Virus record (IMG/VR): IMGVR_UViG_3300006921_000084
Coordinates: 1 to 30,276 of that record
Direction: 5' to 3' (one strand)
DNA length: 30,276 nucleotides
Source of the DNA: a virus
Shown here: piece after piece, positions 3,746 through 29,410 of the stretch
Numbering within the stretch: position 1 is the stretch's first letter
Layout: each line of letters begins with the position of its first letter
The notes under the pieces: model-generated
The model's database searches: none
Told to the model about the DNA's origin: nothing
Seen by the model: the letters and a program-made list of their open reading frames with translations, nothing else
Made by a program: the position numbers and the translations under genes

Positions 3746-3762
3746 TCAGTTAACTTAAACCT

Positions 3763-3840: not shown

Positions 3841-3861
3841 TACCTTAATGAGGGAAAGATA

Positions 3862-5643
3862 ATGAAAATAGAAATAGAAAATAGAGAACCTAATTACAAA
3901 GAAGTATCAGAAACGATACGATTAGGTCCTCAAAAAGAAATACTTGATGACTTAGATGTCATTAATAATAGATGGATGTTAACTAACTGGTGTTACGGAA
4001 ATAGATCAGAGTTACAACCATTAGAACCATTACATGTTACTAAAACATTTAGATGGGGTGCTGGTTATAAACAAAAGATATTAGATTGTATAGATACTAG
4101 ATTTCATCAATACAATAAACCTACTGGTAGTATACAAACATTATTTAGTAGGGCTAATAATGCTGAATGGTATAAAAAACAATTTACAGATAAAATATTA
4201 GATCTAGATGATAAGCTCAAAAGATTAAGAGCTAATAACATAGGATTTGATAGCAATGAAGATGTATTTAAAAAAATATATCTACAATTCTTAAATCGTT
4301 TTGATGAACAAAAAGCAATAGCAGAGAATATATCATCTTCTGGTGATATAGATATCAAAATAGATATGTATAGAATATCTAGTGATAGAATTGATGAACT
4401 AAGAATAAACGGTAGAGAATTAACACAAGCAGAAAAAGATTGTGTTGCTTACGAAAATACTTATGTTTATCAAACATACACATGGAAAAAACCAGTAATG
4501 GATTTTGTTAATCGTGAAGGTAATGTAGTATATAGTTATGAATTACCAGAACCTATACATATGGCATTTTATTTTAAAGTGTCTGAATTAGTTAACAAAA
4601 TGATATATTACAATGGTGATATTACAAAAATAACATCAAGTAACTTGTGTAGCACTACAAATATACATAATAGATATTGCAATAATCTTAGTCATAGGGC
4701 TGGATTAAACAATACTGTTAGTGTATGGGGTGCAGGTGCAGGTTATGAAGGTGCTTATGACGGTAATTCTGATCCATTAAACATGTCATCATCATATAGC
4801 AATAGTTACACTGTAACAGCATATCCTTACATTGGAACAAGAGAACATGTTATGCCTAGAGGTGTTGGTCAATATCTAGATTATGAAAAAGATCATTGGA
4901 GAAATGTATGCCATGGTGACATAACTAGTGAGTTTAACACATGTTTCTTACATATGGATGTAATAGGTGTGTTATCATTGTTTAATTCATGGAATGTATG
5001 GCACACAACACGATCAAATCCATTACAAGGAATTCGTTACATGTTTCTTGAAAAAAGGCCAGAAATGCAAGCAGTATGGGATCAAATAGGTTTTAGTGAT
5101 AATGATGCACATAAAAGATTATCTATTATGTATCAATGCTACTTAGGTCACTGGGATACTGATATTTCATTACAAGATAACTTTTTAAGTTTAGTTACTA
5201 TGGATGCTTTAGAAAATAAAATAGTAGCATACTTAGAAAATAATAGTATATATGATGAAGAATATACATGTATGTGGTTAGATATGTATGATGTTGGTGC
5301 AGCTGATTGGTATGAAGAGTTCTTAGCAGAACACATTATCAATGCAAGACATGCAATGATGACACATTCTAGTTCATATAACTGTTTAGAATATGCTACT
5401 GTTACAAAAGAGGCTGATACTATGGCTTTTATAGAATGGATAAGCACAAAAGAAACACTAGATTATGTTGATGCAGATAAATTAGATGAGTTACCATCGT
5501 TTGGTGATGAACTTGAAGCATTAACTAATGAAAATACAAGAACAACTCTTGAATCATTAGAAGATCTAGATGAAAATCGATTAGAAAGAGAAATGTCAAT
5601 GTGGGTAAACGCTAATACTAATAGGAGGACTAATAATGGCTAA
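3862..5643 (+). CDS. Large E2-like (UBC-fold) conjugating protein of the ubiquitin-like cassette (593 aa)
   Basis: I chose the ATG at 3862, 6 nt after GAGGGA; a TTG at 3823 in frame lies inside the hairpin. An E2-like segment is visible around residues 320-385. It has YPYIG (321-325) in the place of HPxV/I, then NVCHGDIT with Cys350 matching the CLGD-type active-site motif of prokaryotic E2-like proteins, then a helix and LFNSWNVWHTTRSNPL resembling the conserved end of that domain. About 320 N-terminal and 200 C-terminal residues are unrecognised, and the C-terminus is acidic. I infer Cys350 accepts the Ubl from the E1-like enzyme. The overlap with the JAMM gene (8 nt) and the operon context support this. 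The His-to-Tyr change and the great length are unusual, so a catalytically altered E2 is possible. Confidence 0.65.
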   Translation: MKIEIENREPNYKEVSETIRLGPQKEILDDLDVINNRWMLTNWCYGNRSELQPLEPLHVTKTFRWGAGYKQKILDCIDTRFHQYNKPTGSIQTLFSRANNAEWYKKQFTDKILDLDDKLKRLRANNIGFDSNEDVFKKIYLQFLNRFDEQKAIAENISSSGDIDIKIDMYRISSDRIDELRINGRELTQAEKDCVAYENTYVYQTYTWKKPVMDFVNREGNVVYSYELPEPIHMAFYFKVSELVNKMIYYNGDITKITSSNLCSTTNIHNRYCNNLSHRAGLNNTVSVWGAGAGYEGAYDGNSDPLNMSSSYSNSYTVTAYPYIGTREHVMPRGVGQYLDYEKDHWRNVCHGDITSEFNTCFLHMDVIGVLSLFNSWNVWHTTRSNPLQGIRYMFLEKRPEMQAVWDQIGFSDNDAHKRLSIMYQCYLGHWDTDISLQDNFLSLVTMDALENKIVAYLENNSIYDEEYTCMWLDMYDVGAADWYEEFLAEHIINARHAMMTHSSSYNCLEYATVTKEADTMAFIEWISTKETLDYVDADKLDELPSFGDELEALTNENTRTTLESLEDLDENRLEREMSMWVNANTNRRTNNG

Positions 5644-6559
5644 TTTCTACATGAGTAATAAAGACTGGAACACATTACAAAACTATGCAAGGTATGCTTA
5701 TGATGAGCATACATCAGAAATTGGTGGGTTCCTTATAGCAGAACAAGATAAAGATAATAAATGGAAAATGCATAAACCTGTAATACTAAAACAAGTAATT
5801 AGTAGTGGTAATACAGTGTTAGATAAAGATGCATTATCTGAATATTATGTTAAAACTGCTATGAAAATGAAAGATAAACCATTTCAATTTGTATGGTGGC
5901 ATAGTCATCATACAATGGAAGTGTTTTGGTCTGGAACAGACTTAACAGCAATAGACGAATTTAGTAATGGTCAAATGTCTATATCTTTAGTAATTAACTT
6001 AAAACAAGAATACAAGTTAAGAGTTAATTTATGGCATCCTTATAAGATGCATGAAGATGTAGAAATGGATATTATTAATAAACCTAAAACTAAAGTTGTC
6101 CCTAAACCTATTAGAGATAATGTTGATAAGTTATGTGATAAACCTTCTACATTTGTATATCCTAAAACAAATACATTATCTAAGAAAACCTATAACCAGC
6201 TAAGTGTATGGCAACAAAAGCCATTAGATTTAGAAATGGTTCAAGTTGAATCTAAAATAGATAATATATTGATGGATTATCTTACATCTTTAGATTTTCA
6301 AGAATACCAAATATCAGTTAACAAACTTAATTACGAATTGAAAAAGAGTAAAAGTGAGTTAAGATGTGGTTTAGTTAAAGAACCAGAACATGAAAAGTTC
6401 TTGTTTGCAGCAATGGCTACATTTAATGCAGATGATTGGGTTTATCCAAAAGGATCTAAATGGTCTTTTGAAGATAAATGCATAGAATATGATATTGAAG
6501 GTGAAGAAGATGAACCAATAGAATATGGAGGATACCACAATGTTGGAACAGCGTTATAG
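5636..6559 (+). CDS. JAMM/JAB-domain metallopeptidase, deubiquitinase-like (307 aa)
   Basis: Residues 1-120 form a JAB/MPN domain with the full zinc motif: Glu28 (SEIGGFLI), His89-x-His91, seven residues, Ser99-x2-Asp102 (HSHH..SGTD). All catalytic residues are present, so an active isopeptidase is expected. It would remove the Ubl from targets or process precursors; as this Ubl already ends in GG, deconjugation is more likely. Residues 120-307 are an unrecognised charged extension with a predicted helical core and an acidic end. AGGAGG precedes the ATG. It overlaps the E2-like gene by 8 nt and the E1-like gene by 20 nt, so the three enzymes are co-translated. Confidence 0.85.
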   Translation: MANFYMSNKDWNTLQNYARYAYDEHTSEIGGFLIAEQDKDNKWKMHKPVILKQVISSGNTVLDKDALSEYYVKTAMKMKDKPFQFVWWHSHHTMEVFWSGTDLTAIDEFSNGQMSISLVINLKQEYKLRVNLWHPYKMHEDVEMDIINKPKTKVVPKPIRDNVDKLCDKPSTFVYPKTNTLSKKTYNQLSVWQQKPLDLEMVQVESKIDNILMDYLTSLDFQEYQISVNKLNYELKKSKSELRCGLVKEPEHEKFLFAAMATFNADDWVYPKGSKWSFEDKCIEYDIEGEEDEPIEYGGYHNVGTAL

Positions 6560-7181
6560 TTCAATAGTGAGTAACTTCAATGAATATACATATCACATAT
6601 TAGGTTGCGGTGCTATAGGTAGTGCCGCAGCTACTCAAATTGTTAGAATGGGTGGCAATAACTTATACTTATATGATATGGATAGAGTAAGTGAAGAAAA
6701 TCTTGGTGTGTCACAATTTAGGATTTCTGATTTAGAACAATCTAAAACTAAAGCCTTAAGAACAATATGCCAGACAATAAATGCAGATATAACCATTGGA
6801 TGCGTAGATGGTTTATTTGAGCATTACATACCACACGGTAATGACATTATAATCTTAGGTTTTGATTCTATGGAGTCAAGACTTGATGCAGTCAAGAATA
6901 TAATGAAGCAACAGAAACCATTGTATCTTATAGATGGTAGAATGGGTGCAGAACATTATCAACAGTATGTGTTTACTAATCCAACTTTATCACAATACCT
7001 AAAAACATGGTATTCAGATGAAGAAGGCAGTAGTGAACCATGTAATGCAAAAGCAACATCATATTGTAGTAATATGAGTGGTAGTTTTATAGCAAATTCC
7101 ATTAGGAAATTGATTACAGAACAACCATACAACAAGGAATTGTCGTTTCATTTTCCTACAATGATGTTAGAGACTAAGTAA
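6540..7181 (+). CDS. ThiF/E1-like Ubl-activating enzyme (213 aa)
   Basis: A Rossmann-type adenylation domain: ATP loop GCGAIG (22-27), Asp46 and Asp48 (YDMDRV), Asn54 and Arg61 (ENLGVSQFR) with Lys69/Lys71, and Asp109/Arg114 (GFDSMESR). Conserved PCNAKATSY (Cys168) and Cys176 lie near the end and are candidates for a thioester or zinc role. E1/ThiF/MoeB enzymes adenylate the C-terminal Gly of a beta-grasp partner, here presumably the GG-ended Ubl. It is short compared with eukaryotic E1 but normal for minimal ThiF proteins. I chose the ATG at 6540 because GGAGGA lies 7 nt upstream; the ATG at 6525 sits on that ribosome site. It is the last gene of the cassette, followed by a hairpin. Confidence 0.85.
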   Translation: MLEQRYSSIVSNFNEYTYHILGCGAIGSAAATQIVRMGGNNLYLYDMDRVSEENLGVSQFRISDLEQSKTKALRTICQTINADITIGCVDGLFEHYIPHGNDIIILGFDSMESRLDAVKNIMKQQKPLYLIDGRMGAEHYQQYVFTNPTLSQYLKTWYSDEEGSSEPCNAKATSYCSNMSGSFIANSIRKLITEQPYNKELSFHFPTMMLETK

Positions 7182-8398: not shown

Positions 8399-8661
8399 TG
8401 ACAGCTAAAAAAATAGTTCTTCGTTGGATAGAAAATCAAATGAAGAATAGATCTAAAGTCTTCTATAGTTACGATTTTGAAACACAAATAAATAATTATG
8501 GAAGACTTGCTCATCAGAAAGTACATACGCCAAGTACATATTCTAGAGCATTTAGAACAATCCGTTCAAGTGATGATTTAGCTAGAATGGGAATTAAACT
8601 AATAGAAATTAAAGACGTGAAAGGGAAAGCAAAGGGATGGAAAATAGAGAAGCTATCGTAG
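8398..8661 (+). CDS. Small winged-helix-like protein (87 aa), GTG start
   Basis: A basic 87-aa protein. Residues 40-85 (HTPSTYSRAFRTIRSSDDL, then an Ile/Lys wing ending KGWKIEKL) look like a recognition helix followed by a beta wing, suggesting a DNA-binding winged helix. The GTG start overlaps the SSB stop (TAGTG) and has no Shine-Dalgarno, so translation probably depends on ribosomes finishing SSB. It overlaps the primase-helicase gene by 25 nt. A helicase-loading or origin-binding role is possible from the position, but that is inference. Confidence 0.65.
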   Translation: MTAKKIVLRWIENQMKNRSKVFYSYDFETQINNYGRLAHQKVHTPSTYSRAFRTIRSSDDLARMGIKLIEIKDVKGKAKGWKIEKLS

Positions 8662-10442
8662 AAATAGTAGAAGGTTCTATCAATAACAGAAATGTTACTG
8701 GTAATATAAATATCTACAATGACATAGTAGAAAAGAATGCATTTAAGAAAGAAATGTATCGTTCTTATTACCATTTTGATGAATCGTTTACTAAACACGT
8801 AGATAAGGAAGGATCTGTAAAAGGATTTAACGGATTAGTTTATTTAAATTACATACATTTAGACATTGATAAAGGTGATATAGACGACAAATCATTTAAT
8901 CCTTATGTTATGAATTGTTTATCTGAAGTATTAGATAAGGGAGTTATGGCAGAAGATATTAATATATGGTTTAGTGGTAGTGGTTATCATATCAAAATAA
9001 AGAATGTATTTGGTTTACAACCAAGTAAAGAATTACATACAAAATTAAAATTTACATTAGAAAAACATTTTAGTTTTGGTGATTCTATATATGATAAGAC
9101 AAGAATAATACGTAGTGAATGGGCTTTGAATACCAAAACAGGTTTATACAAAGTCTTTATTCCTATAAATTTATTACAAGATTATTCATATAATGATATT
9201 AAAAAGTTTGCTAATAGTAAAACAGCATACACTAAATGGTCAAAGAAATATCCAGGTTTTTATGATAATATGTTTAAATCTGAAGATATACAATTTGATC
9301 CATACTTACAATCAATGGTAGTTGCATCACCAACAATAGCTGCTGTCACTAATGGTGATAGTAGAAAAGGTGATGTATCTAATGTAGTATCGTGTATGCA
9401 ACACATATTTAATGAAGGACCAATAAAAGGTTCTCGTAATATGAAATTAATGCGTATGGCAAGCTCGTACAAACGTTCTGGTGTTCCATATTTAGTAGCT
9501 TTAAATGGCTTACTAACATGGAGTGACGGAACATTACCAGAAAATGAAGTCATAAGATCTGTTAACAATACATATGAAGGAAATTATGTGTATAGTTGTA
9601 AAGATCATATTATGGCTGAATACTGTGACCCTAAATGTATTTACTTTAAAAATAAAGACTATGTATTAGAAATTAATAGTATTGATGCATTAGAAAAGAA
9701 TCTTCGAGAATATATAAGTGAAGATCTTACTAAACGTTCAATAGATGTAGGTGCTTTGTTTAATACATATAAATATACTTTTAAACCAGGTGAACTAATT
9801 GTGTTCTCTGGTGATACAGGTATGGGTAAATCAGCATTTGTACAATATTTAGTAACAAAGGCATTGAAAGACGTATTGTATTTATCATTGGAAATGAAAG
9901 AAGAATTAACTTTCAGACGCTTTGGTCAAATGGCTATAGGTAAAAGTCAAGAATGGATTAACAATGAATATAAAACTAATCCAGACTTTACACTTAAAGA
10001 CAAATTAGGACATGTTAAACTAATGACTATAGCACCAAGAATAGATTCAGTAAAGAAAATCGTTGCAGAATATCAACCAAATGTATTAGTAGTAGATACT
10101 GCTGATGAAGTACAAGTAGACTTTAACAGAGGTGAAATAGAAAAACAAAATATTGTTATTGATGGGCTTAAACAAATAGCACAGAAAAACAATATAATCA
10201 TTATAGCTATATCACACTTAAATAAAGCTAGTGCAGCTAGTAATGTAGTTGCATTACATTCATTAAAAGGTTCATCTAATCTAGTACAGAAAGCTGACAA
10301 AGTGTTAGTCATCAAAGGTGAAAGATCAGAAAAAGTAAGACAAGTCGTGTCTGAGAAATCAAGAGACGAAGATAGGTTTGAAATGACTGTATTCTTTAAC
10401 ACAGATGACTTTACTTTTAAGCAATTAAATGAAACGAGTTAA
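8637..10442 (+). CDS. Primase-helicase: archaeo-eukaryotic-type PrimPol domain fused to DnaB-type helicase (601 aa)
   Basis: The N-terminal domain has AEP primase motifs: HLDID (Asp76, Asp78), SGSGYH (113-118), and a third motif around RIIRSEWALNTKTG (157-169). A Cys cluster (321, 330, 334) follows a helical linker. The C-terminal RecA domain has Walker A GDTGMGKS (392-399), LSLEM (418-422, DnaB motif 1a), Walker B VLVVD (483-487) and AISHLNK (524-530). It would unwind duplex DNA 5'-3' and lay down primers at the fork, the role of T7 gp4 but with an unrelated primase domain. The start overlaps the winged-helix gene, with AAAGGG nearby. No DNA polymerase is seen in the window. Confidence 0.85.
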   Translation: MENREAIVEIVEGSINNRNVTGNINIYNDIVEKNAFKKEMYRSYYHFDESFTKHVDKEGSVKGFNGLVYLNYIHLDIDKGDIDDKSFNPYVMNCLSEVLDKGVMAEDINIWFSGSGYHIKIKNVFGLQPSKELHTKLKFTLEKHFSFGDSIYDKTRIIRSEWALNTKTGLYKVFIPINLLQDYSYNDIKKFANSKTAYTKWSKKYPGFYDNMFKSEDIQFDPYLQSMVVASPTIAAVTNGDSRKGDVSNVVSCMQHIFNEGPIKGSRNMKLMRMASSYKRSGVPYLVALNGLLTWSDGTLPENEVIRSVNNTYEGNYVYSCKDHIMAEYCDPKCIYFKNKDYVLEINSIDALEKNLREYISEDLTKRSIDVGALFNTYKYTFKPGELIVFSGDTGMGKSAFVQYLVTKALKDVLYLSLEMKEELTFRRFGQMAIGKSQEWINNEYKTNPDFTLKDKLGHVKLMTIAPRIDSVKKIVAEYQPNVLVVDTADEVQVDFNRGEIEKQNIVIDGLKQIAQKNNIIIIAISHLNKASAASNVVALHSLKGSSNLVQKADKVLVIKGERSEKVRQVVSEKSRDEDRFEMTVFFNTDDFTFKQLNETS

Positions 10443-11344: not shown

Positions 11345-11466
11345 TTGTCCCCCCTATATTAACACGCTTTGAAGGAAGCGAGTGGTGAAAATCCACCTCA
11401 GACCCTTTAGAGCAAATACACTTGGTTGGCACTGATGTATATAATATATTAACTAAGGGGGGATAA
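11345..11466 (+). promoter_or_regulatory. Structured leader resembling a cobalamin-riboswitch core
   Basis: An 11-bp outer stem (11345-11355, containing CCCCCC, with 11456-11466, containing GGGGGG) closes a 100-nt RNA. Inside, a hairpin CGCTT/AAGCG (11365-11369/11376-11380) leads into GGAA-6 nt-GGTGAAAATCC-8 nt-CCC. The cobalamin (B12) riboswitch core has the same words and the same 8-nt spacing (GGGAA, GGTGnAAATCC, CCC), and an ACTG follows at 11431 after an extra loop (ATACA/TGTAT, 11416-11420/11436-11440). The outer stem ends 4 nt before the Shine-Dalgarno of the next gene, so it could gate translation. The usual GCnACTGT directly after CCC is displaced, so another T-loop RNA is possible. 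Confidence 0.45.
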
Positions 11467-11478
11467 TAAAGGAGAAAT

Positions 11479-11917: not shown

Positions 11918-14900
11918 TTATGGAGCTTCTTCAACAATTTCTTCATTTTCTTCCTTATCAGGCCTATTTCCTAGCCTTCCTACAGCATGAACAGGAATAC
12001 CAAACATCCATTCCATTGCCATTTCAGGAGTTTCTGCTGTTCTTAAGAAATCTCTTCCCACCCTACCAAAAGGTAATGCAGTAGCTGCAGTGTATTTAGC
12101 AAAAGCTTCCCAGTCGTTGTTAATTATACTAGTTGTTGGTCCTAATACAAATCTTGCAGCAGGAGGAGTTACAATAGCTAATGGAGATAACAAAGGATGT
12201 CCATATTGATTATAGAAAGCTCTTTCTCTTTCTTGCTCATCTCCATACATTAAATGTGAGAAATCTACCATCCAATTCATAGGTGGTGATAAAGCATATT
12301 CAAATATACTTGCTGCAAACACACTACCTAAAGCTGCAGTCATTAAATCAGCACTTAATTGTCTTTCAAATTTTTTGTTAGCATCAAAGTCTCCATATCC
12401 TTCTGTAAGCATACGATCACTTATTATGTTTGCTCTTCTTCTAATACTATTCCAACTATAAGGATGGAAACGTGTCATAACTCTACCAAACGCAGTATTA
12501 GCAAAGTTAGGTCTATTTGTAGCGTGATATATAAACTGTGAAGATTCAATACCTTTTTGTGCATATTCTAACAAAAATTGTTCAGTAACTTCTACTTGAC
12601 CTCTACTATCAGTAAACAATTCTCTAGCTTTAATGTAGTGTGCAATAGCTGATTTTAAACGTAAATGTCTTTCTGTAGTTCTCATAAAATAAGAACCCAT
12701 ATCTAAAGCTACTTTATTTATACCAAACTTTTTAGAAGCTTCACTAATAGTTAATTCTTGTTCAACAGTTTGTTTTCTTTTTTCAATATTTTCTTTATTT
12801 AAAGACTTATCTTTAGTATATACTGGCAACTTTTTAAATGCTTCAGCAATTCTAGGTCCAGCAACATTTACAAATGACTGCCAATCAGTTTCTCCAGCAG
12901 GTTTCATCATAGCTAATTCTCTTACAATATTAGATTCTAAGAAACCAAAACTTTCTACATATGTATGAACGTCATCTATAGTTCTAATAGGATCTTTTAT
13001 GTATTGTCGAGTTGAAGGATCATAAGCATTTATTGTTTTACCTTTAAATACAGTGTTAACTAAATAATTTTCGTCAAATGATTTAAGATAAAAATCAAAT
13101 CCTACATCAGTAATTAAATTTGTAGTACCACCATACATATTAGCTACAGCTGATTTAGGGTGAGCAAGTAAAGCCATCATTTCAAACTTACCCTCCATAT
13201 CTGAAAACCAATTCATTTTATCTACCATAGCTCTGTGTCTTGCAGTAGGGTCTTTAGGTAAACTTTTAAATATTTGTATTCTACCATCAGTTAAATGACC
13301 TAATGCTTTATTAACTCTTTGTTCTGCACGAACCATTACATTACCAACTGTTTCATCACTATAAAATCCTCTAAATGATTTTCTAATATTTGTAATGTCT
13401 ATATTGTCTTTGTTTATTTCTTTGGTATTATTTTTAAATATAAAATCATTTCTATAATCTACAGTTCTTTTTCTAATTGCTCCTATAGTACTTGATCTTT
13501 TATCAAATTTAACACCTTTACCAGATTTTAATACTACCATATTTTCAGCATAGTCAATTAAATCTATATTATTTCTTTGTATAACCTTACCATCTACATT
13601 TACAAATTCACCATATAACTCTCTAAGCATAGCTTTTCTTTTACTTTTAACAGTATCTTCATATTTTTTCGTTAAATTAATTCTAGCTGTTTTTTTATCT
13701 GCTTGAGAAGCTTTACTTTTGTTAATTTTTTCTATATTATTACCATAAGCATCTTTTATGTTTTTAAAACGATACTTAGCATACAATTCTTTTTGCATGT
13801 TATTAATTTCACTTTCAGAAGGTCTAGTATATTGTCTTAAATCATTTATTAATTTTGCATCTACTGCATCGTACATAGGATTTTCTTTTAAAAAATGTAA
13901 ACTATATCCAGATTCAGCATATTTAACTAATATATCCATATCTTTAGCATTTACACCATTAAGTTCTAAACTTCTAGTACTAGGCATGTTCATATAACCC
14001 TTAGTTAAATCTATAATTTTATGCAACCATCTTCTTCCTACATCAGGATCAATTCTTTTATTACCAGGTAAAGTATTATACTTAAAATGGCTTATATGTA
14101 GTCTAGACATAAGAGCAGCACGTTGTGTAGTCACACCCAACGCACTAGTTCTTAAATATCTTTTATAAGCTTCCATAGATGTATCATACCCTTCAATAGG
14201 TACTGAAGCTCTTTTTCTTATTGTAGAAAATTTACCTACACCAGGTGCTTCTATAGAACCTCTTCTAGTTGATATCATGTTAATTCTATCATAAGATACT
14301 TGATCGTAAAACTCATTATTATATTGCTCTGGATTGTTTACCAGTTTATTTACCATATTTTTATACAAACGTTCTGCAACTTCTGGTAATGTTATAAATT
14401 TTTGTTCTAAAGCTCTATGTAGTTCCAAGTTTTCAGTAAGTAATTCACCTTCTTTTAATCCAAGTTTTGTATCATACCTACCTACTACTTCACCTCTTTT
14501 AAATGCCTCTATATCAATATCTTTAAACTCATAATAGTATTCTTTAGTTACAGTGTTTTGTAACTTACCAAAATAACGTAAAGTTTCTCTAGGTATGTGT
14601 TCGTTTTGTATAAACTTAATATGTGCTTTAGTATTAGGGTGATGTAAAGGATGATATGTGTTACTAAATCTTTCACCATCTACTTCTTCTGTTCCAATAA
14701 AACCAAGTCTCTGATCTCTTACTTTATTTAAATTAGTTTCTTTTATAAAACTTTGCAACTCTTGGTATTTAGTCATTTTAGGATTTGTTTCAGATATTGT
14801 TTTTTGTAATTTAGAATAATCTAATCCAACACTTCCATCTTTCAATACAGTACCATACTTTTCAATAGCTATATCACGTATATCTAATTGAAACTCTGCC

Positions 14901-17900
14901 CAGGTTAAATCTTCACTATGAAAATGTTTACGTACAACTTCTTTACCTTGTGCTAAACGCCTGTCATTTAAATTTACACTCTCAATAAACAATAACCTAT
15001 CTGGCATAATTATACCATGAACATCCATAAATGTTTCTGACATAGCTTTATGCATATATTCTGGTTGATCTACACTTAGTTTATTTTTTATATCTACATC
15101 ATAAAATTTATCAAAATTAAATACTCCACCTTTAAATCTACCTTGTACTAATTTTTTACCACTTAACATTTCTGCTAACGTTTTATAGTTACTTGCATGC
15201 AAAGTATTGTAAGCGTCAGTCATAGTTTCTGTTTGTATAGTTTCTTTAATATACTCAACCATTTCTCTAGGCGTTAGTTCTAAATCTTTATCTGTGCCTC
15301 TTTCTTTAACTTCTATTCTATACTTTGGATCTATTTCACTTAATAATTTTCTAAATTTTATTACATTAGCTTTAAGATTTGCAATAGATTGTGGAGATTC
15401 ATTCTCTCTCGGTCCTCTATCTCCTGGTTTTTCATTACCTTTTAATCCCATTTGTCTTTCGTAAGCTGCTAATGATTCTAATATAGGTTTTACTTTAGCA
15501 TATTCTTTATAGTTTACAGGTCTTATAGTATCAAGCTTAGAATTTAATTCAGCTATCATTATATCAGCTAAAACATTACCAGCAGTGTGAGCCGAACCTA
15601 TTGTTTTACCTATCTCACTTACAATATTTGTTGGATATTTAATACCTACATCAGTATATATACCATCTTTAATTACTTGTGCTGTTCCGATGTTATAAAC
15701 TTTATCTACTTTTTCTAATATTTTTCCTATCTCTGAAGGAAATAATAAGTCTGTATCAAACTCTGGTGGCATTAGTTTTGAACCATGTTTTTTTTCTAAT
15801 TCTGCTATTTCTTTAATTAATTTTCTATGTAAAAGTTTTCTAGTACCCCACTCTTTCCATCCATCTAAATATCTGTTCTCTAATATATTACTAAATATTC
15901 TTAAGTGATTGTAATCTATTGTATCTATACCGCTTTTAGCAGCAACATCTAACTTTTCAAATGTTTTTAAATAAATACCAGTAAGGTCCATAACATGAGA
16001 AGTTTGTCCATTTAATGCCATTCTCTTTATAATGTTACCCATTCTATCTATTTCATAAGTCAAAGCTTTTGGTGTCATTTGATATTTATCTACAATCTCT
16101 TGTTTTGTTTTTATTTGTGAAGCAATTTCTTTTTTAAAATTATCAGCTTTGGCTAAAGCTTCCCAATTTGTTAAATCTGCAGCAAAAGTTCCACCAAATT
16201 TTATATCCTTATCTATTACAGTACCAGGGCCATCTCTGTCACCTGTTTTAACAGGTTCTTGTAAAGTTGTAGTTTTAAATATAGCAGATCTTCTTCTTGT
16301 TTCAGTAGGTTCTTTAAGTGATTCTAATATAGATTCTTCAAATCTAGCTATATCACGTTTAACTTCTGGAGATATAGCAGCATTACGCATCATATTATTA
16401 GGTCCTTCTGGTTGAAAGTTTCTCATTTCATACTCATAATTACCTAATTGCTGTCTTAAATTATAATAATTAGACTTATCTTTTTCACTCCAATCATTTT
16501 CATTTTTTCTAGTACCTTTATTTTTCTTACCTTCTTTATATAATACTAAATTTCTTAATTTATCTCTTACTCGTATAACTTCTTGTTTTCTTACCTCGAA
16601 TGCAGCTTTTTGTTCTTGTGGCATTCCATTATAATTTAATTCCATAAAAGGGTTAGCTTCGTGCCAATATTCAAATAGTTTCTCTACCTGTTTATTAATG
16701 ATAGTCATTTCACTCTTTGGTATTGTACCTCTACCACCCCTAGTAGCTTTCTTAGCATAAAATTCTGTAAGAGCTTGTTTTAAATATCTTTTACTTAACA
16801 ACACAGTCTCAGGATAGCTCATACCATCAGGATTGTTTCTTGAACCAGCAGCAAACTTTTGTAATTTAGCATTAGCTCTACCACTAAACATAAACTTTTG
16901 TTGTTGTGCAGTATGTATAAGTTGATAAACAAAACTGTCTATTTCTGGTCTAGTCATACGAAAACGTTTAGTTAAAGTTTCTGATATACTACTATCATTT
17001 AAACCTTTATGTGGTTTATCTAAAAAGTTATACGTTTCTTGTACAGCTTTTACTACTCTGACAACAGACATTTTGTTATACAAAAAATGTGGATTATCTA
17101 GTATAGCTTCTACTTCTGACTTAGTAGTACTTTTAGGATCAAAAAATATATTTTTAAAATATTTATCATTTTCAATTCCAAATGCTTTGGCATAGGGGTC
17201 TTTTGACAATGCTTCGTTTAACATTCCTACAATATTAAACATGTTTTCTTTCTTCATATTAACTAATGGATCAATAGTCATATTTAAATCTTTAGTATAT
17301 TCTGCTATTTGTCTTACTATAGAATCTACATCTCCATGTTTATCAATCATGTTTTTAGATATCTTATCATAAGTAGGTCCATCTTTTTTTAGTTTACCTT
17401 TAATAGTAGCGTCATGAAACTTTTTAAATTGTGAAACGTCTAACTCACTTACTGGTAGTTCATAAGTATTTTCTAGATACTCTCTTACCTTTCTCATTGT
17501 AGTAAACGCATCAGGAAGACCTACTGTTTCTGCGGCGTCAATATATCTATTACCTATAGCTGAATTTAATCTAGCTATTTCTTGCCATATTTCTAATTTT
17601 TCTTTTGGACTAAGATCAGCTCTACTTTGTAAAGCTAATTCTGCTGCTTGTTTAATCTGTGTGAAACCATTGAATATAATACCAATAGAATCTTTACCAT
17701 ACGTAGCTGAATCTGCTGCTTTAATCTTTTCACCTAACATTAAAATACCTAAAGAGTTAGGTTTAGCTACAACGTCACCTATAATACCTCTATCCATTAA
17801 AAACTGATCATCTTTTAATTCATAATCTTCTTTTATATTTTCTTTTTTAGAAAACTCATATTGAACATGTGGTTGTCTATAGCCGTCTTTTATTCCTTTA

Positions 17901-20900
17901 GGCATACCCCAAGATAAATGTGCAGAGTCAATATCTTTATCAGCTCCACCCATCATTAAATCATTTCTTGAATTAGTAATTAATGCAAAACCTTTTTTTG
18001 ATTTACCTCCAGCAAAACCTACAAACTTGAGTGCTCTCATATTACCAGCAGTCATAACAGGTGAACGATTAATAATTGCATATTGTGAATCTCTCCAAGC
18101 AGTTAAATCTTCTGCTGACATCTTAGCCACTTTAGCATTGTTCATATTTAAAGATAAGACGTTTTGCATATCTGTCCACCATTGTTTTAAAGTAATTTCT
18201 TTACCTTCTGTAGGATGTTTAACACGCATATTCTCTGCACCAGACCATAACATAAACTCGTTATCTGCTAAACCTTTTTCTGCTGAACTATATTTTTGTT
18301 TTTTTAATGAATACTTCCAATCGTATGGTGCTAAAATAACTGAATAACTATTATTTACTTTAGGTCTTATAATACGTGCTAGCAAATAAGATCTTAAGGT
18401 CTTTTGTACAAACTCTGATGTACCTCTACTCTGTAAAGCTGAATATGAAAATCCAGTATCAGCTAAATGTTGACCTACGTGCTTATCATGAACTCTACTA
18501 AATTCACTAGCTTCTGTATCTAGAAACTGACCATGTTTATTTTCAAAGTATAAATGTTTTAATATACTTTTGAATGCTTGACTTTTAGTTCTGGTAGTCA
18601 TAATTGTATCAATAGTAGCAATATCTATTTTATCTATATCTAATCCTTCTAAATCTCTACCACCTTTTAGTTTTTTACCTTTGTGAGTTTTTTGATCTAA
18701 TCTTTTTAGAGCTTCCTTAGTTACTTTAGAATCACCTCTTACTGCATCACTTAGTAAACCTCTCCATCCTTGGTGAAATGCCTCACCTACTGGAGTATTA
18801 GGATCAAACTGTATGTTGTTAGCATTTAAAAACATTTGTTGCATAATATTTAGTTTACCAGTAACATTAATTTTTTCACGTACATCTATATTCCAATGAA
18901 AGTCACTTGTTTTTACGTTGAATTTTTTAGGATCAATAGGATATACGTTTTGATCAATAGTTGCTTTTGATTTATCGTAAGCCAGCTCATTAAGCATGTT
19001 AACTTCTAATCCAAATTTATGTTTAGCACCAGAAGTGTAAAGCATAAACTGTAAATTATTAGCATCCATATATCTCATATCAGCTTTATCTGCTCTAGCA
19101 TAAGCAAATTTACCTATTACTAAACTTCTACTACCCTGATCGTTTCTAGCTTTTTCTCTTGAAGTTCTAGGTTTAGAAAATAATGTACCCTTAGCCATAC
19201 CCGAAGCAGAATCATTACCCATATACTTTACTAACTTATCAAATATTCTAGAATTTAACAATATTGTACCATCTGTTTCTGATTCAAATCTTGTACCTAC
19301 ATTTAAATCTTCTAATAATATACCATTCATATCATTATTTTTTAAACCTAATTTAAGTCCATCTAAAAAAGGTATTTCAGCTTTATCCATTTGATTTAAA
19401 TACTTTTGAAATTTTGCAGGAGTTTTATAGTCTCCGTTTTTTTCGTTTCTTAAATATCTTTCTACTAACCCAGTTATTTTTTTAACGTTTACATCTTTAC
19501 CAGATTTTATCATTCCCATTTCACGCATTCTATATATCATAGTAGCAACAGTATTTTCTTTAGTTTCTTTATTAATTTGTTTTTTAGAATTAGCTCTGTA
19601 CCAAGCTAAACCTTCTGGCGTTTTAATTGCTTCTTTAATAATTTTTTTATACACACCCTCTACTTCTGTAGGAGTCCAATGACCTTGTTTACCTTTTGCA
19701 GCCCAAGGATAACTTCTTATATCTACCCTACCAGTGTCAGATATACCACCATATATAAACTCTCTATCTCTTTCATTTAATTTTTTCTCAAATGCATACC
19801 AATCTTTTTCACTTACATAAGGTCTTACTATAGGGTTTTTACTTTTAGGTGAATACACAGTTTCTCTAGCAAAAGGACTTACAAAGATAACATTTTTTTT
19901 CCCTTTATTAACTTGCATATAACTTATAGTTTTACCACGCATATTTCTAAAACCTATAAAAGTATCTCTCTTACCAGCAGTAAGCTTGCTTAAAGGATTA
20001 CCTTGAGGATCAACCATAGGAACCATTTGTGGATCTCCTACTGTTTTTTTATCCCCTGATTTTAATGGGTTAGTAAAATCAATATAAAAGTCATCATATA
20101 TAGGTTTGTAATTATCAAATCTTAAAGCTACCCTTCTAGTTTCTTTTATATCATTAGAGTCAAATTTAACTTTAGGATATTGTCTTTTAACTTTTTTAAC
20201 AAACTCATCAACATCAATACGTTCCTTACCCTTTGAGTCTTTGTAGAAATGTTTTGCTTTAGTAGTATTAAATGCAGTAACCATTTTTTCAAAGAACATC
20301 TCTTGTGTAAACTTTTCATAACCAGAAGTATCTGCTATACGTTTAGCTATTTGTGTTAAACTATGCACTGGAAAATCTACTTCATTACCAGAGGTAAGTT
20401 CTTTTCTGAAGCTTTCATTCAATAATGATAAATCTATATTTTTAGAAGGTTTATATGGTGCTATATCTACATCTGGTGTATAATTATCGCTTTGTACTCT
20501 TTCTTTTAACTTAACAAGCTCTTGTAGTAAACCTAATTTACCTTCTTCTTTTCCTTTTCCTTTTAATGCATATTGAATTTGTTCTTGAGTAATCTTTCCA
20601 TTTTTTTCTAATTGTTGTACAACTTTTAAAATTTCTAACCCTAATTGATCAGTAATAACTTCTTTACTAGTTAACTGTTGTTGACGTATGGCTTCAAAAT
20701 GATTTAGCCAATATTGTTGATAGTCTTTAGTTTCAGATTTAAACCATGGAAGTCTTTTTAATGTGTCTATATTTTCTCTTACAGATTTAGTTCTATCAAA
20801 AGTATTTGCGTGAACATTTATATCCTTAGTAGCTCTAGTTTGCCACGTAGGTCTAGCATTAACACTAAAAAATACACCCATTAAAGTTTCATATATTTGT

Positions 20901-21988
20901 TCTTCTACTGGATAATCATTCATAGCAGCTACTATACCACCATATCCTGCACCAGCTGTCCCTCTTACCACAGTATTTATAAACTCAGTAGCTTCTGCTG
21001 TATTTTTAGTAGCTAAAGTACTAGCTGTTTTTCTTATTATACTTTCGCCTGCTTTTACTAATGCTGGATTACTAGATGTCATTAGTTTAGATATGTTTGC
21101 ATATTGACCTATACTACCAAAGATACCACCAGCTATACCACCATGCATACCAGCCATAGCCATTTCTTTAATACCTTCACCAGACATACCTCCAGTATTT
21201 CTAGATGCTAACGGATGATTAGAGAAAGCCATAAGCAATCCAACGTGTCCAGCTTCGTGAAGTATTCTACCTACCGCATCTTTACTCATTCCACCTAATA
21301 ATAAACCACTAGATATACCTTCTAACAACTTACCTTTGTTTTCACCTAACGCTGCTATACCTTGCATTTGTACTACTTCAGCAATTTTACCTGGTATAGA
21401 TTTTAATTCATAGATAGATTTGTTTTTAACAGGATCTAACATTACAGGATTAGTAGAACGGAAGGGTTTTAATAGTGTAGTGTTAGCTAATCTTCCCATA
21501 GATCTTTGCAATCTATCACTACTAGCTGCATAATTATTAGATTTATCTACTAATTTTTTACCTAGTTTTGCTAAAGATTTACTACTTTCTGCAGCACCAC
21601 GTCTTATTATTGCATTACCAACAGTAGCTGTAGCACTAGTTAACATTCTAGCTCCACCCATCATAATCCCTGGTGCTAAACCTATTAAGTGTGTAACATT
21701 ATTTACTATTTTTTCCATACCAGTATCTGGTTTATCTGCAAAACCAAACGTGGTAAAGCCTTCTAATAGTCCAGATACTGCTTGTTTAATAACTCCATCA
21801 GTAGCATCTTGAGAAGCTATAGGAATTTTAAGTTCAGTTAGTTTACTTTCAACATAATTTAAACTATCTTGATCTAAGAACGCTGCATTAGAGTCATAGT
21901 AGTTTTTTAGAATGTTAGCATATGTAACTTCATTTAAACGACCAGCTCTTAAACGACTGTTTAAGCTATTAATATAAGGGTTTAACAT
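11918..21988 (-). CDS. Giant virion-type protein with double-barrel RNA-polymerase motifs, candidate virion RNA polymerase (3356 aa)
   Basis: Residues 1-400 are rich in Gly and hydrophobic stretches (for example GLAPGIMMGGARML, HGGIAGGIFGSIG), as in ejected inner-core proteins, and contain HEAGH (244-248), a possible zincin motif. Residues 900-1495 hold a set of two-barrel RNA polymerase signatures in the right order: TDGTILL (Asp906-Gly907), GMAKG (930-934), SGAKHKFG (Lys989, Lys991), RSP (1308-1310), GADKDIDSAHL with DxDxD at 1350-1354 (compare NADFDGD in beta-prime), and YIDAAETVG (Asp1484). Residues 1500-3000 are mostly helical and unrecognised. The C-terminus resembles other giant phage virion proteins (FHPYSWNSIRRR, then hydrophobic segments). 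It is the last gene of the virion operon, 6 nt after its neighbour, with a poor ribosome site. I infer that it is packaged and injected to transcribe phage DNA, like crAss-like phage gp66. Confidence 0.7.
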   Translation of the reverse strand: MLNPYINSLNSRLRAGRLNEVTYANILKNYYDSNAAFLDQDSLNYVESKLTELKIPIASQDATDGVIKQAVSGLLEGFTTFGFADKPDTGMEKIVNNVTHLIGLAPGIMMGGARMLTSATATVGNAIIRRGAAESSKSLAKLGKKLVDKSNNYAASSDRLQRSMGRLANTTLLKPFRSTNPVMLDPVKNKSIYELKSIPGKIAEVVQMQGIAALGENKGKLLEGISSGLLLGGMSKDAVGRILHEAGHVGLLMAFSNHPLASRNTGGMSGEGIKEMAMAGMHGGIAGGIFGSIGQYANISKLMTSSNPALVKAGESIIRKTASTLATKNTAEATEFINTVVRGTAGAGYGGIVAAMNDYPVEEQIYETLMGVFFSVNARPTWQTRATKDINVHANTFDRTKSVRENIDTLKRLPWFKSETKDYQQYWLNHFEAIRQQQLTSKEVITDQLGLEILKVVQQLEKNGKITQEQIQYALKGKGKEEGKLGLLQELVKLKERVQSDNYTPDVDIAPYKPSKNIDLSLLNESFRKELTSGNEVDFPVHSLTQIAKRIADTSGYEKFTQEMFFEKMVTAFNTTKAKHFYKDSKGKERIDVDEFVKKVKRQYPKVKFDSNDIKETRRVALRFDNYKPIYDDFYIDFTNPLKSGDKKTVGDPQMVPMVDPQGNPLSKLTAGKRDTFIGFRNMRGKTISYMQVNKGKKNVIFVSPFARETVYSPKSKNPIVRPYVSEKDWYAFEKKLNERDREFIYGGISDTGRVDIRSYPWAAKGKQGHWTPTEVEGVYKKIIKEAIKTPEGLAWYRANSKKQINKETKENTVATMIYRMREMGMIKSGKDVNVKKITGLVERYLRNEKNGDYKTPAKFQKYLNQMDKAEIPFLDGLKLGLKNNDMNGILLEDLNVGTRFESETDGTILLNSRIFDKLVKYMGNDSASGMAKGTLFSKPRTSREKARNDQGSRSLVIGKFAYARADKADMRYMDANNLQFMLYTSGAKHKFGLEVNMLNELAYDKSKATIDQNVYPIDPKKFNVKTSDFHWNIDVREKINVTGKLNIMQQMFLNANNIQFDPNTPVGEAFHQGWRGLLSDAVRGDSKVTKEALKRLDQKTHKGKKLKGGRDLEGLDIDKIDIATIDTIMTTRTKSQAFKSILKHLYFENKHGQFLDTEASEFSRVHDKHVGQHLADTGFSYSALQSRGTSEFVQKTLRSYLLARIIRPKVNNSYSVILAPYDWKYSLKKQKYSSAEKGLADNEFMLWSGAENMRVKHPTEGKEITLKQWWTDMQNVLSLNMNNAKVAKMSAEDLTAWRDSQYAIINRSPVMTAGNMRALKFVGFAGGKSKKGFALITNSRNDLMMGGADKDIDSAHLSWGMPKGIKDGYRQPHVQYEFSKKENIKEDYELKDDQFLMDRGIIGDVVAKPNSLGILMLGEKIKAADSATYGKDSIGIIFNGFTQIKQAAELALQSRADLSPKEKLEIWQEIARLNSAIGNRYIDAAETVGLPDAFTTMRKVREYLENTYELPVSELDVSQFKKFHDATIKGKLKKDGPTYDKISKNMIDKHGDVDSIVRQIAEYTKDLNMTIDPLVNMKKENMFNIVGMLNEALSKDPYAKAFGIENDKYFKNIFFDPKSTTKSEVEAILDNPHFLYNKMSVVRVVKAVQETYNFLDKPHKGLNDSSISETLTKRFRMTRPEIDSFVYQLIHTAQQQKFMFSGRANAKLQKFAAGSRNNPDGMSYPETVLLSKRYLKQALTEFYAKKATRGGRGTIPKSEMTIINKQVEKLFEYWHEANPFMELNYNGMPQEQKAAFEVRKQEVIRVRDKLRNLVLYKEGKKNKGTRKNENDWSEKDKSNYYNLRQQLGNYEYEMRNFQPEGPNNMMRNAAISPEVKRDIARFEESILESLKEPTETRRRSAIFKTTTLQEPVKTGDRDGPGTVIDKDIKFGGTFAADLTNWEALAKADNFKKEIASQIKTKQEIVDKYQMTPKALTYEIDRMGNIIKRMALNGQTSHVMDLTGIYLKTFEKLDVAAKSGIDTIDYNHLRIFSNILENRYLDGWKEWGTRKLLHRKLIKEIAELEKKHGSKLMPPEFDTDLLFPSEIGKILEKVDKVYNIGTAQVIKDGIYTDVGIKYPTNIVSEIGKTIGSAHTAGNVLADIMIAELNSKLDTIRPVNYKEYAKVKPILESLAAYERQMGLKGNEKPGDRGPRENESPQSIANLKANVIKFRKLLSEIDPKYRIEVKERGTDKDLELTPREMVEYIKETIQTETMTDAYNTLHASNYKTLAEMLSGKKLVQGRFKGGVFNFDKFYDVDIKNKLSVDQPEYMHKAMSETFMDVHGIIMPDRLLFIESVNLNDRRLAQGKEVVRKHFHSEDLTWAEFQLDIRDIAIEKYGTVLKDGSVGLDYSKLQKTISETNPKMTKYQELQSFIKETNLNKVRDQRLGFIGTEEVDGERFSNTYHPLHHPNTKAHIKFIQNEHIPRETLRYFGKLQNTVTKEYYYEFKDIDIEAFKRGEVVGRYDTKLGLKEGELLTENLELHRALEQKFITLPEVAERLYKNMVNKLVNNPEQYNNEFYDQVSYDRINMISTRRGSIEAPGVGKFSTIRKRASVPIEGYDTSMEAYKRYLRTSALGVTTQRAALMSRLHISHFKYNTLPGNKRIDPDVGRRWLHKIIDLTKGYMNMPSTRSLELNGVNAKDMDILVKYAESGYSLHFLKENPMYDAVDAKLINDLRQYTRPSESEINNMQKELYAKYRFKNIKDAYGNNIEKINKSKASQADKKTARINLTKKYEDTVKSKRKAMLRELYGEFVNVDGKVIQRNNIDLIDYAENMVVLKSGKGVKFDKRSSTIGAIRKRTVDYRNDFIFKNNTKEINKDNIDITNIRKSFRGFYSDETVGNVMVRAEQRVNKALGHLTDGRIQIFKSLPKDPTARHRAMVDKMNWFSDMEGKFEMMALLAHPKSAVANMYGGTTNLITDVGFDFYLKSFDENYLVNTVFKGKTINAYDPSTRQYIKDPIRTIDDVHTYVESFGFLESNIVRELAMMKPAGETDWQSFVNVAGPRIAEAFKKLPVYTKDKSLNKENIEKRKQTVEQELTISEASKKFGINKVALDMGSYFMRTTERHLRLKSAIAHYIKARELFTDSRGQVEVTEQFLLEYAQKGIESSQFIYHATNRPNFANTAFGRVMTRFHPYSWNSIRRRANIISDRMLTEGYGDFDANKKFERQLSADLMTAALGSVFAASIFEYALSPPMNWMVDFSHLMYGDEQERERAFYNQYGHPLLSPLAIVTPPAARFVLGPTTSIINNDWEAFAKYTAATALPFGRVGRDFLRTAETPEMAMEWMFGIPVHAVGRLGNRPDKEENEEIVEEAP

Positions 21989-21994
21989 TATATA

Positions 21995-22717
21995 TTATTG
22001 CTCTAAAGTAGCTTTTAATTGATACATTTGTTCAAGTCTATTGTTGTAATAGTCTTGGTCTTCATCAAAACTTTGACGTGCTGAAAATGTTGCAAGACTT
22101 TCTGCTGTTTCTATACCAGTATTAATTAAATCAATAGCTTGAGTTACTGAAGGTGCATTTGGATTCAACTGTTTTACTTGTAATACGTCAGCTAATCCTA
22201 CATTTAATAAATTGTATTGAGTTTCAAATTGTTGTTTTGAAGCTTCAGCACGTTTATTATCTTTTGCTAAGAACCTTTTAGCTGTTTCAAAAGTAAATCC
22301 TTGGTTTTCACTTGGATCTGATACACCTACAAAATTAGTTTGTCCTAAAGCTACCATAGCATCGTAACCTGCGTCTTCTAACTTTTGTGCAGTTTCATAT
22401 CTAATTTGATCCATAGCTTGTTCACCACGCAATCCTTGTAAATTTAAAGCATTCATAGCTCTTATCGCTTCTATATTATAGTTGTTTTCATAACCCATAC
22501 TAGCTAAATCTGTATCATATGTATGTTTTTCACCCATAATAAATGATTGTAATTCTGCTGTTGTTTCAGCTTGTGTTTGCATTAATTCTTTTGATGCATT
22601 TGTTTCTATTTCCGTCTTCTCCTCAAAGCTTGGTTCTCTAACTTGTGCCATTAAGCCTGATATGCTAGAGCTAGCTCTTGATAAAGAATTTAAAAATGCT
22701 TCACTGTAACTTGCCAT
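21995..22717 (-). CDS. Helical virion-associated protein, probable internal/ejection protein (240 aa)
   Basis: An Ala/Gln/Glu-rich, almost entirely helical protein with long heptad-like stretches (ETNASKELMQTQAETTAELQ). No Cys, signal peptide or clear membrane segment. It lies directly upstream of the giant gene, the position of small internal core proteins in short-tailed phages. It shares one base with the upstream gene (TAATG). Virion association is inferred from composition and position. Confidence 0.6.
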   Translation of the reverse strand: MASYSEAFLNSLSRASSSISGLMAQVREPSFEEKTEIETNASKELMQTQAETTAELQSFIMGEKHTYDTDLASMGYENNYNIEAIRAMNALNLQGLRGEQAMDQIRYETAQKLEDAGYDAMVALGQTNFVGVSDPSENQGFTFETAKRFLAKDNKRAEASKQQFETQYNLLNVGLADVLQVKQLNPNAPSVTQAIDLINTGIETAESLATFSARQSFDEDQDYYNNRLEQMYQLKATLEQ

Positions 22718-23247
22718 TATACTACTCCTCCTAACCCGCTTGGGTTTGTTTGAAAGTTTGCACCCATACTAGGTATTGAATAACCTCTTTCTGATGCCGT
22801 TCTTTCTAAATTTAATAATCCTACTTGTACGTCTCTTAACTCTGATTGAAATCCTTTTGATATAGATGACATAGTTTGATCAGCTCCTAATTTTTGTGCA
22901 GTCAATTGATTTTTAAATGCACTGTCTAGTCTGTTACTTTGCTCCATTGCACCACCACTATAACTCATACCTGTATTACCAACCAATGTATCCATAGCAG
23001 ATCTTTCTCCTTGATAACCTTGTAAAGCTCCTTGTTGAGTTATATTAAACTCTTGTCTAGCAAAACCAGCTCTTTGTCTGTAATCATCTCTTAATCCACC
23101 TATAGAGTTTATTAATGATGTTTGTGCAGTTAAAGCATGTTTTTTCTCTCTTGCTCTACGCTTTCTTTCTTCACGTCTTCTTTTACGCATACCTATATTA
23201 CCTAATATAGCACCACCTACTGCAAAACCTATACTTACTGGGTCCAT
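22717..23247 (-). CDS. Probable internal virion protein with N-terminal hydrophobic helix (176 aa)
   Basis: It begins MDPVSIGFAVGGAILGNIG, a Gly-rich hydrophobic helix, then a very basic stretch (RKRRREERKRRAREKK), then a long Gln/Ala/Ser helical body ending in Gly/Ser-rich residues. This plan (membrane-active start, helical body) matches small ejection proteins such as those in the T7 gp14 position, which form the periplasmic channel for DNA. Sequence similarity to gp14 is not evident by eye. Tightly coupled to its neighbours by shared stop/start bases. Confidence 0.6.
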   Translation of the reverse strand: MDPVSIGFAVGGAILGNIGMRKRRREERKRRAREKKHALTAQTSLINSIGGLRDDYRQRAGFARQEFNITQQGALQGYQGERSAMDTLVGNTGMSYSGGAMEQSNRLDSAFKNQLTAQKLGADQTMSSISKGFQSELRDVQVGLLNLERTASERGYSIPSMGANFQTNPSGLGGVV

Positions 23248-23630
23248 TACGCCTCCTCATTCATTTTCTTAGCCACAATAGAAGGACTAAAAGGTTTAAT
23301 TTCTAAATCAGGACTAATAGAATTTAACCAAAATTTACCACCAAAGCTAGAAGCAATTGCTTTAGATGCTTCTCTTTTAGCTTTATCATGTTTACTTACA
23401 AACAATTCGTCTGGACGATAATCCATATCATCATTATACATAGTGTCATTATCGTCTTCTTCTGATTCATGAAATAAACCCTTTTCTGGAGGTAGTTGTT
23501 TATACTCACTATTTGGATCATCTCCTTCTTGGTAAATACCAGATTCCATTCCTTCTTTAAATAATTTTTCTTGCAACCTATCTTGTTCTTGTTGCTTATT
23601 TTTTTTTATTAATTGTTCAGCTGTTGCCAT
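23247..23630 (-). CDS. Acidic hypothetical protein (127 aa)
   Basis: A charged N-terminal helix (KKNKQQEQDRLQEKLFKEG), a strongly acidic middle (HESEEDDNDTMYNDDMDY) and a more ordered end (GGKFWLNSISPDLEI). No family recognised. Low complexity in the middle suggests disorder. It lies between lysozyme and the internal virion proteins with 1-nt overlaps on both sides, so it is probably a scaffold-like or virion accessory protein. Confidence 0.6.
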   Translation of the reverse strand: MATAEQLIKKNKQQEQDRLQEKLFKEGMESGIYQEGDDPNSEYKQLPPEKGLFHESEEDDNDTMYNDDMDYRPDELFVSKHDKAKREASKAIASSFGGKFWLNSISPDLEIKPFSPSIVAKKMNEEA

Positions 23631-24148
23631 TACACATCCCCTTTTAATTTATTTATTGCTTCTACAAAGTCTTCTACTCTAACTGGTGTTTGTTCTTTCC
23701 ACGTAGATGGTTCCATCTCTGGTGGATTTTTATATAATAATTCTTTTATTGCATCATCATAATGTTTTGCTTTTAATAATTTCCATGTAGCTGGAAACTT
23801 TTTATGCCAACTAGTACCTAATTGATAATTAACAGATACTAATGCTATTTTAAAATCGTCATCATTTAATTTAAGTAACTTCATTTGTGTCTTAGAAGCA
23901 TCTAAAGCTGTCTTAACATCTTCTTTAAACCAGTTATCAATAACCCTTTTAGGTACTAAAGACTTAACAGGATACTTTTTGTTTTCTTCTTTAGTTAATA
24001 AATGCCCAATACCACAAGTAGGTTTACCTAATATATCTAAATAAACACTTTGTTTATAACCTTCTCTTAATTTTAAGTGTTCAAATAACTTTTTAGTAAA
24101 CTTATCATTATTATAATACTTTAATCTATCTGGTATTAAACCCCACAT
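23630..24148 (-). CDS. T4-type lysozyme (glycoside hydrolase 24) (172 aa)
   Basis: A muramidase that cleaves the N-acetylmuramic acid-N-acetylglucosamine bond of peptidoglycan. The T4 lysozyme triad is present with exact spacing: Glu29 (LREGY), Asp38 (VYLDILG), Thr44 (KPTCGIGH), as Glu11/Asp20/Thr26 in T4. The C-terminus has STWKEQTPVRVEDF, like the conserved W...TP.R region. Length is normal for the family. There is no signal peptide or anchor, so cell-wall access would need the holin, or packaging in the virion. It sits among virion genes, not next to the holin (about 4.2 kb away), so a virion-associated role in DNA entry is a real alternative. Confidence 0.88.
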   Translation of the reverse strand: MWGLIPDRLKYYNNDKFTKKLFEHLKLREGYKQSVYLDILGKPTCGIGHLLTKEENKKYPVKSLVPKRVIDNWFKEDVKTALDASKTQMKLLKLNDDDFKIALVSVNYQLGTSWHKKFPATWKLLKAKHYDDAIKELLYKNPPEMEPSTWKEQTPVRVEDFVEAINKLKGDV

Positions 24149-28957: not shown

Positions 28958-29410
28958 TTATTTCTTTTTCTTAGCTGCTCTTTTTTTACGTCTAGCTGCT
29001 GCATTTGCTTTCATTTTAGAACTCATGTTCTTCAATCTAGATCCTTTTCCAACTACGCTAGTGTAAGAAGCTCCTTTTCTAGTAGTTTTTTTAACTCCAG
29101 TATGATATGAACGTTTATCCCAAGTAAATGTTTTCTGTCCTTTTTTACGGGCTGCACTTAAAGCAGAGTTAAAACCTTTGCCTTTAGCAGAACCTTTTTT
29201 ATAAATAGGGTAGTTACCGCCTTTAGTTTTTTTAACGCCTCTAACTGATTTACGATCTACTTTACCTTTATATTTAGAAACAACAGCTTTACCTCTGTTT
29301 AAAAGAGACTTAGCTCCTTTTTTAACTTTACCAGCTGCTTTTTTGATTCTACTACCATCCAACTTAGGTCTTCCTCTTTTACTACCGTATGTGCCTTTAC
29401 CTTGTGGCAT
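28958..29410 (-). CDS. Very basic Lys-rich protein, probable DNA-binding or virion protein (150 aa)
   Basis: More than a quarter of the residues are Lys or Arg, beginning MPQGKGTYGSKRGRPK and ending AARRKKRAAKKKK. A central segment, ALSAARKKGQKTFTWDKRSYHT, matches a short A-x-ARKxG-x-F-W-x-x-Y-x-T motif seen in small phage virion proteins. The composition resembles histone-like or core-condensing proteins. A GGAGAG site lies upstream. It may bind packaged DNA; that is inference from charge. Confidence 0.65.
   Translation of the reverse strand: MPQGKGTYGSKRGRPKLDGSRIKKAAGKVKKGAKSLLNRGKAVVSKYKGKVDRKSVRGVKKTKGGNYPIYKKGSAKGKGFNSALSAARKKGQKTFTWDKRSYHTGVKKTTRKGASYTSVVGKGSRLKNMSSKMKANAAARRKKRAAKKKK

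Follow-up and report, generated by a model that had tools for sequence, protein, structure and literature searches.

A predicted two-barrel RNA polymerase inside a giant, probably packaged protein of small uncultured phages

Introduction

To our knowledge, virion-borne two-barrel RNA polymerases (RNAPs) are known experimentally from only a few phages (phi14:2, P23-45 and jumbo phages). The closest known enzyme to the one described here is gp66 of the crAss-like phage phi14:2 (PDB 6vr4), a single-chain two-barrel RNAP residing in a giant late protein. In record KC821624 it is gp077, a protein of 2180 aa recorded as structural and found by mass spectrometry. A functional analogue is provided by the virion RNAP of phage N4 (Schitoviridae), an injected protein of ~3500 aa with an internal RNAP domain whose fold is of the T7 single-subunit type. 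The QDE-1 and RDR polymerases of RNA interference share the single-chain two-barrel layout, but they are cellular enzymes devoid of any virion fusion. In Thermus phage P23-45, which has a very long tail, the RNAP domain forms the N-terminal part of a giant virion protein, the tape measure gp96, and the authors propose that transcription is coupled to the passage of DNA through a pore formed by the fused protein (PMC10770324).

Here, we analyse a window of 30,276 nucleotides of viral DNA, in which a 3356-aa protein is predicted to contain an enzyme of this kind. That a two-barrel virion RNAP can be part of a giant protein is already known. New is its occurrence in a different lineage with small genomes, and its internal position in the polypeptide. 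As judged from sequence searches, this lineage is diverse, uncultured and unmatched in Pfam, in PHROGs (window protein) and in 50,697 phage records.

The giant gene and its phage

The window is a 30-kb fragment, and the records of its relatives reach 43-48 kb. Since two of these records have redundant ends lying inside genes (151 bp at 99% and 336 bp at 97%) and a third has a 98-bp repeat, genomes of roughly 45-47 kb appear complete. The group as a whole has genomes of ~45-48 kb, in contrast to the ~90-105 kb of Crassvirales. One strand carries the replication block, with a primase-helicase at 8637-10442. The other encodes terminase, portal, major head protein, tail fibre, holin, lysozyme, small ejection-type genes and, as the last gene, the giant protein. 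Cultivated phages offer only remote matches to terminase, portal and helicase, and the best of these are not in crAss phages. The short tail assumed in the first-pass annotation agrees with what the relatives encode as portal, terminase and tail genes; a non-exhaustive look noticed no sheath or tape-measure gene. A T7-like RNAP (PF00940) was not found in nine records (the window and relatives), with a T7 positive control for four of them (E 1e-109), and neither the window nor seven relatives (G001-G003, G008 and G010-G012) yielded a DNA polymerase of family A or B. These phages encode a primase-helicase, devote about a fifth of the genome to the giant gene and seem to borrow the host replicase. 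No prophage copy of the giant protein was confirmed in a scan of GTDB genome contigs.

The 3356-aa reading frame is as first annotated, and its strand, which had been left unstated, is the minus strand. Its layout and neighbours are as follows.

11918..21988, minus strand: giant protein gene, 3356 aa, with ATG at 21988 and stop at 11918; it closes the late/structural block
20312..21988, minus strand: N-terminal ~560 residues with Gly/Ala-rich stretches, without a family match
16889..20311, minus strand: predicted two-barrel RNA polymerase region, residues 560-1700 (AlphaFold model and Foldseek)
11921..16888, minus strand: C-terminal ~1650 residues, probable ejection/channel part (conservation, hydrophobic helices)
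21995..22717, minus strand: 240-aa probable internal virion protein directly upstream of the giant gene (by position; a neighbour conserved in relatives)
22717..23247, minus strand: 176-aa internal-core-like protein, probable ejection protein (by position and composition only; no match in a Pfam search)
23630..24148, minus strand: phage lysozyme (Pfam PF00959, E 2.9e-9)

Full-length relatives of the giant protein measure 3075-3523 aa, and in each of them the RNAP is kept within a single late ORF of more than 3000 codons. The last ~450 residues are highly conserved. Two hydrophobic helices, 3210-3234 and 3265-3284, are the only segments of the protein above the threshold used and would suit membrane insertion. 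An AlphaFold model of residues 2600-3356 was of low confidence (pLDDT 61, pTM 0.43).

Predicted fold of residues 560-1700

The first-pass annotation had proposed a two-barrel RNAP from motifs in the letters, and the predicted structure bears this identity out. The AlphaFold model of residues 560-1700, computed on a 22-sequence alignment, is confident (pLDDT 81.8, pTM 0.78). A Foldseek comparison with the PDB points to a fold with two psi-barrels: each of the 12 entries matched at E<=0.001 is a two-barrel RNAP. The first is gp66 of phi14:2 (E 1.1e-10, probability 1.00), followed by QDE-1 (E 1.2e-7), a resemblance that the annotation had also suggested looking for, and by RDR2 (7.6e-6); the weaker matches listed are the largest subunits of cellular RNAPs. 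Global TM-scores to these entries are modest (about 0.2-0.4) and the rmsd is large, so only the core is common to the model and the PDB entries, as expected for a conserved core within divergent chains. Among predicted viral structures with E<=0.001, the top-ranking matches are unnamed; the named ones include several crAss-like giant proteins and, from Podoviridae sp. ctxqo3, a protein labelled 'RNA dependent RNA polymerase'.

Catalytic residues and their conservation

All motifs listed at first reading are present within one residue of their claimed positions: T905-D906-G907-T, G930-MAKG (K933), S986-GAKHKFG (K989, K991), N1307-R-S-P1310, G1348-A-D1350-K-D1352-I-D1354 and YIDAAETVG (D1484). 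The elements assigned to the polymerase core are the following.

18869..19333, minus strand: beta-like double-psi barrel that comes first in the chain (DPBB-B), at approximately residues 886-1040 (from the strands of the model and the gp66 alignment)
19268..19276, minus strand: T905-D906-G907 motif, D-G invariant, paired with TDA of gp66 (D962)
19190..19192, minus strand: K933, invariant in the family; gp66 partner uncertain, perhaps K1012 (family and gp66 alignments)
19109..19111, minus strand: K960, invariant candidate catalytic lysine of DPBB-B, paired with invariant gp66 K1027
19022..19024, minus strand: K989, invariant candidate catalytic lysine of DPBB-B, paired with invariant gp66 K1065
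18059..18067, minus strand: R1308-S-P1310, RxP of DPBB-A (gp66 R1322-x-P1324)
17927..17941, minus strand: D1350-K-D1352-I-D1354, predicted metal-binding DxDxD of DPBB-A (gp66 D1361/D1363/D1365)
17624..17716, minus strand: candidate bridge-helix segment, residues 1425-1455, with YGKDSIGIIFN (resembles GGKSGVGITAN of gp66; model helix 1435-1455)
17537..17539, minus strand: D1484, invariant aspartate in NRYIDAAE (family alignment)

Motifs read from a single sequence are weak evidence, since among 2000 shuffles of the giant protein 1003 contained DxDxD and 35 a loose version of the motifs in their order. We accept the set as real because of its conservation across diverse members of the family. 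Two protein-based scans of IMG/VR yielded close relatives (54-100% identity), and a third, with the RxP...DxDxD segment as query, two more distant ones. A degenerate DNA pattern for GADKDID then gave 106 stretches, several dozen of them in long ORFs with RxP 15-60 residues upstream. The resulting alignment, around residues 488-1728, holds 22 dereplicated members including the window protein, with 16-67% identity to it. Wherever the residue is present, D906, G907, K933, K960, K989, R1308, P1310, G1348, A1349, D1350, K1351, D1352, D1354 and D1484 are invariant, even in members as low as 16-27% identity. The three DxDxD aspartates are found in 22/22 members, part of which were collected by that very motif; because the DNA pattern preselected GADKDID in members so collected, its invariance is partly built in. 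Selection by this pattern did not touch K933, K960, K989, RxP, TDG or D1484, although RxP was required in ORF picking.

These alignments amend the list of lysines given by the first-pass annotation, which expected DxDxD, K933 and K989/K991 to be constant among homologues. DxDxD, K933 and K989 are indeed invariant; K991 varies among family members and was rejected as a catalytic lysine, and the invariant K960 had been overlooked. Taken by prediction for the fold and by alignment for the catalytic residues, residues ~560-1700 are a genuine single-chain two-barrel RNAP. As a DNA-dependent enzyme complete in one chain, this region would run from a beta-like double-psi barrel with K960 and K989 (and K933 nearby), through a beta'-like barrel with RxP and a metal-binding DxDxD, to a bridge-helix segment.

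Relationship to gp66 and other polymerases

The likeness to gp66 noted at first reading holds in detail. When the family was compared by hhalign with a profile of ten gp66-type sequences (gp66 and nine relatives), a single collinear alignment extended from TDG through DxDxD. It scored 46, whereas the reversed profile scored 18 and none of 100 column shuffles exceeded 28.8. It pairs D906 with D962, K960 with K1027, K989 with K1065, R1308 with R1322, P1310 with P1324, and D1350/1352/1354 with D1361/1363/1365. TD-G/A, two lysines, RxP and DxDxD therefore follow one another in equal order and one to one. The gp66-type alignment has its own invariants at K1012, K1027, K1065, R1322, P1324, D1361, D1363 and D1365. 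Every profile seed that reaches these columns yields the identical pairing (best E 8.6e-6) except for K933, which finds no consistent partner across seeds. Profile-profile E-values lie between 8e-3 and 9e-6 for nearly all seeds, and homology over the core is thus detectable. A second local alignment joins YGKDSIGIIFN to GGKSGVGITAN, a similar GKxxxGI..N segment where the bridge helix would be expected.

The two proteins nevertheless differ: gp66 is the shorter chain, it has DFDID in place of DKDID, and a direct sequence match is absent. Only the ten-sequence crAss profile succeeds, since gp66 as a single sequence gave no significant match to the family profile. The same was true of a single gp96 sequence. 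Although gp96 also has a DxDxD and an R-x-P-like FRNPVM motif, the RNAP here is internal (560-1700), the phage seems to have a short tail and none of its proteins was recognised as a tape measure. Unlike in N4, PF00940 was not found in the window or its relatives. In spite of the fold resemblance to QDE-1 and RDR enzymes, PF05183 gave no match at E<=10.

A tblastn search with the giant protein and three diverse homologues against the 50,697 phage records returned nothing. Neither Pfam (the protein and family members), nor PHROGs (the window protein), nor PDB-sequence searches gave an RNAP match. Two PHROGs of unknown function, phrog_9995 (E 6.5e-22) and phrog_464 (E 2.3e-7), matched one family member each. 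We found no description of the family in open-licence papers, and UniProt may hold uncharacterised homologues. The alignments can be used directly to follow the single-chain RNAPs through which phage enzymes connect to the QDE-1/RDR polymerases.

Proposed role of the giant protein

We favour, with a probability of about 0.8, that the two-barrel RNAP of this giant late protein is packaged, ejected and transcribes the first phage genes. Packaging and ejection are most likely in view of the gene position and the precedents of gp66, N4 and P23-45 gp96, from which we also infer early-gene transcription without host RNAP. The protein would be made late, packaged inside the capsid and ejected via the short tail, either before the DNA or together with it; the polymerase would transcribe the first genes during genome entry. 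The flanks of ~560 N-terminal and ~1650 C-terminal residues most likely make up the portion of this polypeptide that serves inside the virion and in ejection. These small phages would accordingly supply the infected cell with a transcription enzyme of their own. With about half the size of crAssphage, they also offer a place to test the idea of an injected RNAP fused to ejection machinery. A bolder version is tentative, and we lean against it: the phages would be small podoviruses (~45 kb) with the polymerase built into the middle of their ejection-channel protein, and this polymerase would form a distinct two-barrel virion RNAP family absent from cultivated phages, help to pull the genome in by RNA synthesis anchored in the host envelope and be the phages' only transcription enzyme.

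A true two-barrel RNAP might instead be made in the infected cell for middle or late genes, its flanks being processed away or regulatory; non-virion enzymes such as P23-45 gp64, YonO and others do exist (PMC10770324, PMC5467207). We consider this unlikely, because the gene ends the structural/ejection block and lies outside the replication block, and the RNAP is fused into the giant protein with its strongly conserved C-terminus in all full-length relatives. Moreover, the search for T7-like enzymes in nine records disclosed no second phage RNAP for the early genes.

The core could also make another product, as a PolD-like DNA polymerase or as a primase for genome entry or replication. PolD has the same two-barrel core (PMC10770324), and the family A or B replicase is missing from the records searched. 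Such a function is nevertheless very improbable: the structure matches at E<=0.001 are all RNA-synthesising enzymes with no PolD among them, the giant gene sits in the late block, and a separate primase-helicase is encoded. Small phages, besides, often rely on the host DNA polymerase. Least probable of all, and hardly credible, is a degenerate polymerase fold retained solely for a structural role in ejection. Inactive domains can persist in large virion proteins, but all catalytic residues are invariant in homologues at about 20% identity, which would not be expected of a dead enzyme, and collection by GADKDID biases the aspartates, not K933, K960, K989, RxP, TDG or D1484.

Other elements of the window

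A promoter search brought out two elements, neither of which could be linked to the giant-protein RNAP, and no promoter for this RNAP was identified. TCGTTGA occurs at 405 and 472 (plus strand) in the divergent early/late gap 304-526, where it adjoins a 25-nt inverted repeat (379-447), and it recurs in the same gap of G001, G002, G010 and G012; it is an unproven candidate for an early promoter or origin. The palindrome ATTAACGTTAAT lies at about 65-78, 29556-29569 and 29604, and at homologous places in G001, G002, G008, G010 and G012. It is strongly enriched in intergenic DNA beside late genes and is a probable operator or promoter element.

A structured RNA is predicted at 11346-11478 (plus strand; MFE -43.2 kcal/mol, z -5.1), within the convergent gap next to the giant gene and immediately ahead of a 50-aa ORF at 11479. 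It is 83-87% conserved in three relatives and in part in a fourth, with three compensated pairs. It has no Rfam match at E<=1, and its GGTGAAAATCC core recalls, by eye only, a cobalamin riboswitch.

A probable ubiquitin-like conjugation operon occupies 3515-7181 (plus strand), with a 76-aa beta-grasp-like protein ending in Gly-Gly, a 606-aa protein, a JAB/MPN protease-like protein and a ThiF/E1-like protein (E 1.2e-18). The G002 homologue of the 76-aa protein matches ThiS (E 1.9e-5). The operon is present in two near relatives and was not seen in four more distant ones. In the late block, 28958-29410 (minus strand) encodes a protamine-like protein of 150 aa, very rich in Lys and Arg, which G001 and G002 also have and which could be a DNA-bound virion protein. 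Finally, 29613-29999 (minus strand) encodes a thioredoxin-like protein with a signal-peptide-like start, 42-77% conserved in relatives.
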